Of a stretch of 64,000 nt of DNA, positions 34,529 through 38,701 are shown piece after piece (position 1 is the stretch's first letter; each line of letters opens with the position of its first letter). The position numbers and the translations under genes are program-made. Location of the stretch: assembly GCF_014697475.1 (NCBI RefSeq), contig NZ_JACJRV010000001.1, forward strand, positions 186,001-250,000, given 5' to 3'. The notes beneath the pieces were generated by a model. The model was not told where the DNA came from. It worked only from the letters and a program-made list of their open reading frames with translations, and searched no databases. The stretch comes from Nostoc sp. FACHB-152 (lineage in GTDB: Bacteria; Cyanobacteriota; Cyanobacteriia; Cyanobacteriales; Nostocaceae).

Positions 34529-35065
34529 ATGAAGCGTTTACTTCAGTCTTTCGTGACAATTTCTGCATTGTCCTCTTTAGTTATAGCTCCTCTTGCTCTT
34601 AATGCTGGTCAAGCTGCTGCGGAACAGAAAAAAGGTACTGATGCTAGTTATATTGGTGCTGGTGTTGCAGCAAATGTCACTAATGGCGGACTCAACAATG
34701 ATGCTGCTAACTTGGGTGGTAATATTACTGGCCGGGTGAAATTGGGAAATCTTCCTGTTTCCGCGCGCGGTAATGTTTTATGGAATGATGATACAACTAG
34801 CATTATCCCAGAAGTTTCTGTAGACGTGCCAATTGCTAATAAAACTAATGCCTTTGTGACTGGTGGATATTCTTTTGTAGAGAAAAATGGCGCACCTAGT
34901 CCTTTAGGAAATAGAGATTCTGTAGTTGTGGGTGCTGGTGTAGAATCAGAGGTTGCTAATAACTTCCTTGTTTACACTAACGCCAAAGTTGGATTGCGTG
35001 CTTATCAAGATAGTCCTGCTTCTGCTGTTACTATTAATGGCGGAATTGGTTATCGGTTTAAGTAA
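34529..35065 (+). CDS. Secreted outer-membrane beta-barrel-like protein
   Basis: The 178-residue protein has a signal peptide (MKRLLQSFVTISALSSLVIA, cleavage near AGQAAAE). Repeated alternating beta strands with glycine turns follow (GGNITGRVKLGNLPVSARGN, FLVYTNAKVGLRAYQDS), ending in the typical aromatic C-terminus (NGGIGYRFK). This is the pattern of an eight-strand outer membrane barrel. Substrate and role are unknown. It is a single-gene unit. Confidence 0.75.
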   Translation: MKRLLQSFVTISALSSLVIAPLALNAGQAAAEQKKGTDASYIGAGVAANVTNGGLNNDAANLGGNITGRVKLGNLPVSARGNVLWNDDTTSIIPEVSVDVPIANKTNAFVTGGYSFVEKNGAPSPLGNRDSVVVGAGVESEVANNFLVYTNAKVGLRAYQDSPASAVTINGGIGYRFK

Positions 35066-35595
35066 GTGTCATTAGTCATTAGTCAATTGTCATTTGTAAT
35101 TAAAAATTAGCAAGGACGACAATAACGAGAGTTTTTATAACTCAATTAGGATTGCTATATGTGTTGAATAATCTGAAGAGATAGACAAGTAGACATAAAT
35201 TACTCAGTTCAAGTTAAAGCACATATAGATCAGGACGTTGTTTTTCTCTTGCTTTTTGGCTTCTAGTTTTAAACTAAAAATTCATACTTAAGTCGGTTGG
35301 TGGAATTACAGCCCAATATTGTGCATAACCCTGTTGAACTTTAAACGCTGATGAAGCATCGGATTTTTCGGTTAAAAGTCAACAAAAACCAATAAATTTT
35401 GAGTTGATTTACACCGCCTACTTATATATGCTATATGCTGGTTTTGTTATGTGTGACACCACCGACAAAGCCGGCTTTTTGCCGTGTTACAATTGTCATA
35501 TTCATCAGATTTCCGACCGAATTACCGGGAAACACTCAGCCGAAAACATGGCTTGGCTCTGATAGCTGCTTTATTGAGAATACTATACAACTCTA
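35066..35595. other. Long leader region of the sulfite reductase gene
   Basis: No gene is supported in these 530 bp. At about 35137-35165 the words CAATTAGGATTGCTATATG match the end of the TATATAGCA MITE family. At 35467-35478 there is a perfect 12-bp palindrome AAAGCCGGCTTT, about 118 bp ahead of the sir start, which could be an operator or leader hairpin. Confidence 0.5.
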
Positions 35596-37560
35596 ATGGT
35601 TAAATCTGCTCCTCCCCCACTCACCGCTCGTAAGCCCTCGAAAGTAGAAGGCCTCAAAGAAAATAGTAATTTTTTGCGTGAACCTGTAGCAACGCAGATC
35701 CTTGAGGATACTACTCACTTTAGTGAAGATGCGACTCAAATCCTCAAGTTTCATGGCTCCTACCAGCAGGATAACCGCGATAATCGCGTTAAGGGACAGG
35801 AGAAAGATTACCAATTCATGCTGCGGACAAAAAATCCTGGTGGACTTGTACCGCCGCAACTATATCTGGCTTTAGATAAGCTGGCTGATGAATATGGAAA
35901 CCACACCTTACGCGCAACTACTCGTCAAGGTTTCCAGTTGCATGGGATTTTAAAGAAGAATCTCAAGGCGGCGATCGCTACTATTATTAAAAATCTGGGT
36001 TCTACTTTGGGTGCTTGTGGTGACATCAACCGCAACGTTATGGCCCCCCCAGTTCCTTTCAAGAATCGCCCTGAGTATGGGTATGCTTGGGAATATGCCG
36101 AGAAAATTGCTGACTTACTCTCACCCCAAACTGGTGCTTATTACGAAATTTGGCTAGATGGGGAAAAAGCCATCAGTGCGGAAGAAGACCCAGAGGTGAA
36201 GGCGGCACGTCAACGCAACGGCAATGGCACAATTGTTCATGATAGTGAAGAACCGCTTTATGGTACTCACTATATGCCGCGCAAATTCAAAGTTAGCGTG
36301 ACAGTGCCAGGGGATAATTCCATTGATTTGTATTCCCAAGACTTGACTTTGGTAGTAATTACCAACCCTGGAGGCGAACTGGAAGGTTTTGATGTCTTTG
36401 CAGGTGGCGGTTTAGGCAGAACCCACAATAAAGAAGAAACCTTTGCGAGGTTAGCAGACCCCATTTGCTATGTAGACAAGGCAGATGTTTACGACATAGT
36501 TAAAGCCATTGTGGCGACTCAAAGAGATTATGGCGATCGCACCGACCGCCGTCACGCTCGATTAAAATATTTAATCAATGATTGGGGTGTAGATAAATTC
36601 CGCGCCAAAGTCGAGGAATATTTTGGTAAACCAGTCGCCCCCTTCAAGCAGTTGCCAGAATTTAAATATGAAGACTTTCTGGGTTGGCAAGAACAAGGCG
36701 ATGGCAAGTTATTTTTAGGTATCTCCATCGACAATGGACGGGTAAAAGATGAAGGTTCCTTGCAACTCAAAACTGCTTTGCGGGAAATTGTCGAGAAATT
36801 TAACTTAACTATTCGCCTGACACCCCACCAAAATCTGATTCTCTGCGACATTGACCCAGAAAATAAACCAGCCATTCAAGAAATTCTTGACCGTTGCGGT
36901 GTTGTTTCTGACCCTGGCAAAATCGAACCTTTATTCCGCTATGCAATGGCTTGTCCAGCTTTGCCTACCTGCGGCTTGGCTATTACCGAGTCAGAACGGG
37001 CAATACCAGGAATTTTAGAACGCGTCCGGGCGTTGTTGGATAAACTGGGTTTACAAGATGAACATTTTGTGGTAAGAATGACAGGCTGCCCTAATGGTTG
37101 CGCTCGTCCTTACATGGCAGAATTGGGTTTTGTGGGTAGTGCGCCGGAATCTTATCAAGTTTGGTTAGGTGGTTCACCACATCAAACCAGATTAGCGCAA
37201 CCAATTGTCGAAAAATTGCACCACAACGATATAGAAAGCTTCTTAGAGCCGATTTTTGTTTACTTTAAGAAATCACGGCAACTTGAAGAAAGCTTTGGTG
37301 ATTTTTGCGATCGCGTTGGCTTAGATGCTATACGTGAATTTGCGGCACAATATCAACCCGAAACTGTCCCAGTCACAACAGAAGAAACTCCAACCCAAGT
37401 AGCCGCAACCAAGAAAAAAGCTGCACCTAGCCGTTCTCGTTCTCGGATTAGCCTTTATGACGAGGTTTATAACAAACTCAAAGAAACCGCCACCAGTGAA
37501 GGTAAATCAATGACAGAGATCGTCAACGAAGCATTAAAAGCTTACTTGCAGATAGATTAA
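35596..37560 (+). CDS. sir: Ferredoxin-sulfite reductase with a C-terminal ribbon-helix-helix tail
   Basis: The 654-residue protein is the siroheme/4Fe-4S enzyme that reduces sulfite to sulfide with ferredoxin in sulfate assimilation. Motifs are [28 protein letters not shown], the first Cys pair [17 protein letters not shown] and the second [19 protein letters not shown]. After about residue 590 an Ala/Lys/Thr linker leads to [20 protein letters not shown] and [15 protein letters not shown], a clear match in pattern to ribbon-helix-helix (CopG/Arc) DNA-binding domains. Such a tail is unexpected on an enzyme. It is a single-gene unit with a long leader. Confidence 0.93.
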
Positions 37561-37654
37561 GGCTGGAATCACAAAGAATATCGTAAAAATAACAAGCTGT
37601 ACCTTAAATGCGGTGCAGCTTTCTCATTACTTGCAATTTTACCTGTTTTAGGGA

Positions 37655-37778
37655 CAATACGGTTCGGTTAAAGGGGAAAGGCGAAGGGGGAAAGGAGAAG
37701 AAAAAACCTTTAACCCTTACCCTTTAACCTTTTCCCCAAACCAATTTCTAGTTCAAAATGCTTATCCGAACCGTATTG
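37655..37778. mobile_element. MITE with perfect terminal inverted repeats and 10-bp target duplication
   Basis: The ends are CAATACGGTTCGG (37655-37667) and CCGAACCGTATTG (37766-37778), a perfect 13-bp inverted repeat. The element is flanked on both sides by the exact 10-bp direct repeat GTTTTAGGGA (37645-37654 and 37779-37788). Inside, a purine-rich tract (AAAGGGGAAAGGCGAAGG) faces a pyrimidine-rich tract, forming a long foldback. It has no coding capacity and must be moved by a transposase in trans. Confidence 0.82.
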
Positions 37779-37893
37779 GTTTTAGGGAATGAAACAGCCC
37801 TGGCCTTAAAAAGAGGGCTAGGGGCGAGCGAATCCTATGCAGCCTCATAAAAAATTGGAATTACGTAGTGATTAAAAGTATTATTTTTACAGA

Positions 37894-38015
37894 TATAGGA
37901 ATCATATTTGATTTGGGAAAAAAATCAGTACGCTCAGACAAGACTTATTTTCTACTCCCTACTCCCCATTCCCTATTTACACAAGTAAATTCCCAAATCA
38001 AACCGGATTCTTATA
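37894..38015. mobile_element. MITE-like element, TATAGGAATC family (copy 1)
   Basis: Left end TATAGGAATCATATTTGATT, right end ATCAAACCGGATTCTTATA: an imperfect inverted repeat of roughly 26 bp that includes TTGATTTGGGAA. Both ends carry TA. The interior (TACTCCCTACTCCCCATTCC) differs from the other copies at 38812-38938 and 38937-39034. Confidence 0.7.
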
Positions 38016-38278
38016 ATTGTCCATTAATCAGCTAAATAATCATTTTTGATTAATATAAATTTTTGACAAAATATAGGCAAATCTTCAATAATTTGATAAT
38101 ATCAGAAAACCGTAGTTTGATTCACAGCATAGGTCTGTAAAACTATCTTGGCATCTACAATACTTAATAACTATCAACTTGCTTATTCAACTCAGGGCTT
38201 CTTAGTTGTTTTTTTATTGACTCCTCAGCATAGCATCTATCTCAATTGACGCTTCAAGTATTCAATTCGGAGACAGAT

Positions 38279-38701
38279 ATGAAAAAGTTAATTCCGTTGC
38301 TCATCAGTGGTATTTTGGTAGTTGGTGCTTTTGGTTGTCAAGAAAGTCATAAAGATGCTGATAAAGCTCCTCAAAATCCCAGTGTAGTTTCACCACTACC
38401 AGTAAAACCAGCTTCTCAGACAACTCCAATTACAGATAAAATCGAAAAAGCAGCAGCAACAAAAAATACTACTGCAACTACAAAATCTGAAGGTGCATTA
38501 AAAACTGAAGTGGTTAAAAAGCTTAAACAAAGCCTACCAAATAATAAATTAGAGGTAGAAGCTAAAGCAGACCAGATATTAATTAAAGGTACAGCCACCT
38601 CACAAGCCGAATTACAAAAAGCAGAAAAATTAGCTAAAGAGGTTGAAGGGGTTACAAGCGTGAAAACAGAAGCTAAAGTGCAACCACCGAATAAAATTTA
38701 A
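38279..38701 (+). CDS. BON-domain lipoprotein
   Basis: The ATG at 38279 gives a signal peptide with lipobox VGAFGC (MKKLIPLLISGILVVGAFGC). A Pro/Thr-rich linker follows, then a BON domain (about residues 70-135: LKTEVVKKLKQSLPNNKLEV, ADQILIKGTATSQAELQKAE, VEGVTSVKTEAKV). BON domains bind membranes or phospholipid in the envelope (compare OsmY). An upstream GGAGACAG is a suitable ribosome site. It is a single-gene unit ended by the hairpin at 38747-38770. Confidence 0.85.
   Translation: MKKLIPLLISGILVVGAFGCQESHKDADKAPQNPSVVSPLPVKPASQTTPITDKIEKAAATKNTTATTKSEGALKTEVVKKLKQSLPNNKLEVEAKADQILIKGTATSQAELQKAEKLAKEVEGVTSVKTEAKVQPPNKI

Follow-up and report, generated by a model that had tools for sequence, protein, structure and literature searches.

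The window, by which we mean the whole stretch of 64,000 nucleotides of Nostoc sp. FACHB-152 DNA that was analysed, contains a gene for a sulfite reductase that continues beyond its catalytic core. A single open frame of 654 codons holds both the core and a C-terminal tail, and a conserved element lies in the leader upstream. The features concerned are as follows.

35499..35536, + strand: conserved sir leader element, candidate operator, with its core TTTCCGACCGAATTACCGGGAA at 35510-35531 (weight-matrix scan of sir upstream regions)
35596..37560, + strand: sir, ferredoxin-dependent sulfite reductase with C-terminal tail, 654 aa (open reading frame, TIGR02042)
35608..37353, + strand: catalytic core, residues 5-586 (extents of the TIGR02042 and maize 5h8v matches)
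37354..37431, + strand: linker, residues 587-612, basic at its end and probably flexible (pLDDT, length variation, dN/dS)
37432..37551, + strand: ribbon-helix-helix (RHH) domain, residues 613-652 (family profiles, PDB matches, fold prediction)
37438..37455, + strand: predicted beta-strand, residues 615-620, RSRISL (CopG profile register; CdbA register extrapolated)
37459..37500, + strand: helix A, residues 622-635 (AlphaFold2 models)
37510..37551, + strand: helix B, residues 639-652 (AlphaFold2 models)

The core, Sir residues 5-586, matches the sir equivalog model TIGR02042 over all of its 581 positions (1095.5 bits, where the cut-off is 731.5). Among solved structures, the maize chloroplast enzyme 5h8v is closest to it (E 2e-217, residues 12-585). 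Four cysteines that presumably hold the iron-sulfur/siroheme centre (Cys453, 459, 498 and 502) show no variation in 45 aligned Sir sequences. Between core and tail, residues 590-620 have pLDDT values below 50 in a full-length AlphaFold2 model that is itself poor, and the offset from an FGDF-like core motif to the RHH domain varies from 27 to 70 aa in 183 of 187 loci, three loci being without a measurement. In the one other locus (L175, genome G320) the offset is 282 aa, and its linker is enlarged by degenerate QQEGQTTVEPTIPSTSG-like repeats. Downstream of sir, at 38246-38701, lies a frame for a small lipoprotein-like product, the end of which in our estimation resembles BON.

That an RHH pattern follows the Sir core had been proposed in a first-pass annotation, and family profiles, fold prediction and conservation now bear this out. 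The interval given there, 37350-37560, does contain the domain, but it also takes in linker; the domain proper occupies 37432-37551. We located the domain with a profile iterated from the window's tail, and aligned 64 tails less than 75% alike taken from a set of 187. Searched alone, the window's tail is matched weakly by several RHH families at one and the same place, all below curated cut-offs (a 44-aa piece reaches 19.6 bits with Pfam RHH_1, for which the cut-off is 20.5). The suggested profile search against RHH families thus gives a weak answer for this tail and a firmer one for its relatives: counting RHH_1, RHH_3, RHH_5, FitA-like, 56B and ParG as the RHH-type Pfam families, 15 of the 64 non-redundant tails exceed a cut-off, one more ties that of RHH_1 and 48 reach none. 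At E<=0.01, the PHROG 'Arc-like repressor' family 3180 matches 54 of the 64 (best 1e-9), the NCBIfam RelB-like family 44 and Pfam RHH_5 30. When compared with the PDB, the profile of the 64 tails obtains 21 matches at E<=1, solved RHH proteins among them: AvtR (1.4e-4), ORF56 (7.3e-4), StnY (2.0e-3), ParG (2.2e-3) and, more weakly, PutA (2jxg, 0.094) and CopG (0.93). The best row, 8fje (8.2e-5), was dropped as a relative, as it consists of five short partial matches on helix B.

A profile built from half of the tails recovers all 32 held-out tails, each with at least 48.6 bits. Of 1344 controls made by shuffling or reversing tails, none exceeds 14.1 bits against the full profile, and ten have E<=1. 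This contrast establishes that the tails form one family; which family it is can be read from the matches to the PDB and to family models. The assignment of the Sir tail as an RHH domain is therefore well supported. Routine annotation could miss the domain, since some three quarters of the non-redundant tails stay at or below the Pfam cut-offs; in the titles and abstract beginnings of the open-licence PMC literature, we found no paper on an RHH tail of sulfite reductase.

The predicted fold is consistent with this assignment. AlphaFold2 models the tail monomer (from 71 aligned tails) as two helices with pLDDT of about 95, preceded by a stretch without assigned structure, and in this single-chain prediction no strand is assigned. 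The full-length model, with a mean pLDDT of 52.7, recovers both tail helices and is too poor to tell whether the tail docks on the core. Foldseek returns 75 PDB matches of the tail model at E<=10, none of them at E<=0.001, and among the 50 of these 75 that were listed most are RHH proteins (CopG, PutA, Arc, ParG, CdbA). Superposition by VIA-align places PutA first (2ay0, Z 4.4, rmsd 1.9 over 36 residues), followed by ORF56 (3ft7, 4.3), PutA with its operator (2rbf, 4.3), CopG (4.2), Arc (4.2) and CdbA (3.8), where rows within 1 of each other are to be read as tied; 73 of 88 chains reach Z 2 and none reaches Z 5. Such scores are modest, in line with a length of 36 residues, and a Z of about 4 for a predicted model is not decisive. 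The small stand-alone proteins CopG, Arc, ParG and ORF56 share the predicted helix pair and strand register of the Sir tail, and differ from it in that they are not joined to an enzyme and in that the window's tail stays below the Pfam cut-offs.

Which residues of the tail might face DNA? In the CopG profile match (profile 5-40 on chain 4-39), Arg615, Arg617 and Ser619 correspond to CopG residues 4, 6 and 8. The superposition with CdbA of Myxococcus xanthus starts at Ser619 (model residue 17), which equals CdbA residue 12; extended back without gaps over four residues, a short extrapolation, it aligns Arg615 with Lys8, Arg617 with Ser10 and Ser619 with Tyr12. According to PMC7156744, these three CdbA residues form the exposed face of the strand, and the K8A/S10A protein loses DNA binding. 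By this register, Arg615, Arg617 and Ser619 are predicted to face DNA, and Ile618 and Leu620 to be buried. The position of Arg617 is arginine in 187 of 187 tails (a few genes being counted twice), and the triad at 615, 617 and 619 reads RRS in 27, RRG in 10 and QRS in 7 of the 64 tails.

Judged from the sequence, DNA binding is the most likely role of the tail. The basic arm and strand favour this role, and the helices, which are slightly acidic on average (mean net charge -1.1), count against it. We envision that two Sir chains would pair via their tails, that the resulting two-stranded ribbon would enter the major groove with Arg615, Arg617 and Ser619 on its outer face, that helix B would touch phosphates with its N-terminal end, and that flexible linkers would tether the enzyme cores. 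The closest known mechanism would then be that of PutA, which likewise carries an RHH domain on a metabolic redox enzyme and which gave both the top superposition and one of the profile matches of the tail. In PutA the RHH domain is N-terminal and represses the put genes. Sir differs in that the domain is C-terminal and follows a variable linker, in that the enzyme contains siroheme, and in that its leader is a candidate operator only. We assign a probability of roughly one half to the reading that Sir is a DNA-binding, bifunctional enzyme of the PutA type. Such an enzyme might signal to a site on the DNA how sulfite reduction is proceeding, and the leader of sir itself would be our best guess for this site.

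Alternatively, the tail might be a module for dimerisation or docking only, which joins Sir chains to each other or to a partner protein and does not touch DNA. RHH domains are obligate dimers, so the fold by itself would pair Sir chains, and the positions expected to form its hydrophobic core are indeed conserved (Leu628 in 60, Ala646 in 61 and Tyr650 in 61 of the 64 tails). However, pairing has no need of the invariant, outward-facing strand arginine, and a linker that varies so widely in length fits a rigid enzyme dimer poorly. We consider this alternative improbable, though worth keeping beside the PutA-like one.

How widespread is the tail, and is it maintained? Among 386 genomes of the phylum, 187 have a Sir match at E<=1e-100. 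We read 211 Sir frames, 204 of them distinct (seven genes occur both among the genome matches and among 80 named loci from GTDB contigs; the window's own gene was read twice, as L001 and L003), and the iterated profile detects the domain in 187 of these frames and not in 24. The survey of cyanobacteria that the first-pass annotation had called for thus finds the tail in 106 of the 130 genomes in which the end of the gene was read (30 loci and 100 stretches). The 24 tailless genomes belong to families f25 (17), f27 (2), f23 (2), f22 (2) and f1 (1), of which we take f25 to be the marine picocyanobacteria, f27 to look like Thermostichus and f23 like Gloeomargarita; all 17 genomes fetched from f25 are tailless, a count that is no measure of prevalence. 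The tail is present in all 80 named GTDB loci (Nostoc, Anabaena, Scytonema and similar genera), a set made up of the top matches to a query that itself has the tail. In family f38, which belongs to a different class of the phylum, six genomes carry tailless Sir frames of 546-586 aa, the match in L225 including one stop. Five genomes (G048, G058, G080, G083 and G211, three of them from one family, f9) have no Sir match at E<=1e-100, and they are listed as at least 99% complete and of the same family or order.

In the window's genome, no protein but Sir carries a close relative of the tail. The tail profile finds sir at 1.7e-21 and its next match at 2.7e-6, and what follows sir are short RHH frames that stand alone, one of 89 aa and one of 117 aa. 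In 25 chosen genomes, seven matches are sir tails (E<=8.1e-14) and the other 29 are weaker (5.1e-6 or worse); 28 of these lie in frames 56-184 aa long, and the remaining one belongs to a frame of 309 aa in G177. A tail common to other large enzymes was accordingly not seen in the window's genome or in these 25. One stand-alone 89-aa RHH frame of the window's genome (C126, L214 1354-1846) is directly followed by a 73-aa frame that to our eye resembles XisI, and the two are perhaps a linked pair.

Rates of change differ along the protein: in 21 rows of close relatives (L010 and L046 being the same gene), dN/dS is lowest in the core (about 0.06), intermediate in the RHH domain (about 0.12) and highest in the linker (about 0.27), rough figures in that synonymous sites are near saturation. 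The RHH domain is, by these estimates, under purifying selection. On a tree built by a quick method from the core alone (101 rows, with 18 near-identical rows omitted, both strands read and f38 as root), presence of the tail requires four changes, at least three of which are forced by well-supported branches. The history fits a single gain, after f27 and f23 had split off, followed by three losses, one in f25, one in the pair L177/L180 and one in L121. No remnant of a tail was found downstream of the 24 tailless genes in three frames (best E 0.71; for the seven genes listed, the scan reached 470-512 bases past the stop) or at the six f38 loci in six frames (best E 0.31).

It is in the light of this history that one may ask whether the tail is a functionless relic of a past gene fusion. 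Its three inferred losses suggest that some lineages have dispensed with it, as a relic would allow, but the low dN/dS, the invariant arginine and the persistence of the domain in many families of the class argue against drift, and we regard a relic as very improbable indeed.

The plant enzyme offers another comparison. The sulfite reductase of chloroplasts, also known as the nucleoid protein DCP68, has a core homologous to that of Sir, as 5h8v illustrates. Plant Sir is reported to bind and compact plastid DNA (PMC4154389) and to localise to nucleoids by way of a C-terminal peptide of its own (PMC6249382, citing Kobayashi et al. 2016). The 583-aa maize chain 5h8v, a crystallised construct, aligns up to Sir residue 585 and ends eight residues later, which leaves no room for an RHH domain, and there are no plant chains among the PDB matches of the tail profile at E<=1. 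If the maize enzyme lacks the tail in this way, its DNA binding should use another part of the protein. Given where the maize chain ends, the lack of a plant profile match in the PDB and the Sir tree, descent of the cyanobacterial tail and of chloroplast DNA compaction from a common source is unlikely, as far as the one plant chain seen can tell. The link to the chloroplast drawn in the first-pass annotation is hence an analogy at best: the crystallised maize chain is tailless, and on the Sir tree the gain of the tail postdates the split from two early-branching tailless families.

Convergence is a separate matter. Conceivably, the tail would attach to DNA of almost any sequence, and Sir would be a nucleoid-associated protein that functionally resembles plant Sir or CdbA by convergence. 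The 15-residue stretch of arm and strand is basic, with a net positive charge in all 64 tails (mean +4.1), and the whole tail is net positive in 60 of 64. Besides the plastid case, CdbA would provide a precedent, being reported as an RHH protein that acts as a global nucleoid protein; it differs from Sir in that it is a small stand-alone protein that responds to c-di-GMP and contains no enzyme (PMC7156744). Against such a role speak the modest net charge of the tail (mean +3), the Glu or Gln found at residue 615 in 12 of the 64 tails, which would weaken non-specific binding, and the crystallised maize chain, from which the RHH domain is missing. We judge a general nucleoid function to be improbable as well, yet worth keeping as an alternative to the PutA-like reading.

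If the tail does read a particular site, where might this be? The leader of sir contains an element with the consensus AATTCCGACCGGATTACCGG (also written TATTCAtCAtAATTCCGACCGGATTACCGG). It occurs once within the window, where no copy is expected, and its exact form is found once in the genome; at up to three mismatches, there are 8 matches, against 10 for a reversed-pattern control. In a weight-matrix scan the element lies above the best shuffle in 158 of 186 tailed loci, with 28 without it, and in 5 of the 24 tailless ones; each locus was shuffled once and the highest score taken as the threshold, which L157 passes only narrowly, and the counts include many close relatives and seven genes twice. 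The five tailless cases comprise L192 and L193, as well as L121, L177 and L180, in which the element is present after loss of the tail. The scan did not find it in the 17 f25 genomes, and it scored as absent two further tailless loci, L194 and L195, in which a partial element is visible by eye. The element is thus older than the tail and outlives it, which implies that the tail, if it reads the element, joined an older site. Since 5 of 24 tailless genomes carry the element and 28 of 186 tailed loci do without it, we do not put forward simple autoregulation as a settled claim.

We take the element tentatively to be a DNA site. An RNA hairpin in the leader was considered and set aside, as pair statistics of 54 distinct elements show no clear covariation, and Rfam yields two matches only to the leader, both far below gathering scores. 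A scan of 35060-38250 for the sigma-70 consensus returns 10 sites (mean of shuffles 7.1), none of them before the start codon of sir.

The presence of the element differs with residue 615 of the tail. By a stricter score per genome, it is present in 74 of 83 genomes with Arg615 (three more have it weakly), in all three that have Ala, His or Pro at this position, in 0 of 20 with Gln, Glu or Lys and in 5 of 24 that lack a tail. However, these 20 genomes amount to one or two events, so that no significance is attainable: on a tree of 80 of the 106 tailed genomes, with near-copies removed by hand, the association is represented by one independent pair on supported branches and by two on all branches. 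On the best tree, the element changed a further six times while Arg615 stayed in place (L156/L160, with weak scores, were counted as without). At about the place of the element, L139 and L145, which have Gln615, show by eye a degenerate AATCTGACT stretch that may be a diverged version of it. One could imagine a trigger enzyme that regulates itself throughout the class, in which the tail would read the leader (AATTCCGACCGGATTACCGG) and repress sir, residue 615 would set specificity, and the element would be lost together with Arg615 in favour of Gln, Glu or Lys. In this specific and class-wide form the proposal appears unlikely, and we treat the switch at Arg615 as a lead, not as proof.

The tail itself is real, and the observation goes further than the first-pass annotation had claimed. 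If it binds DNA, a housekeeping enzyme of sulfur assimilation may also sit on the chromosome or control a gene, and Sir would extend the few cases, to our knowledge, of an RHH domain on a metabolic enzyme. The plant relative of Sir is a puzzling nucleoid protein that compacts DNA, and by our comparison plastids seem to call for an explanation of their own. In cyanobacteria, a tail that binds DNA would be a defined part that can be deleted in order to learn whether there is a direct line from sulfur assimilation to the genome.
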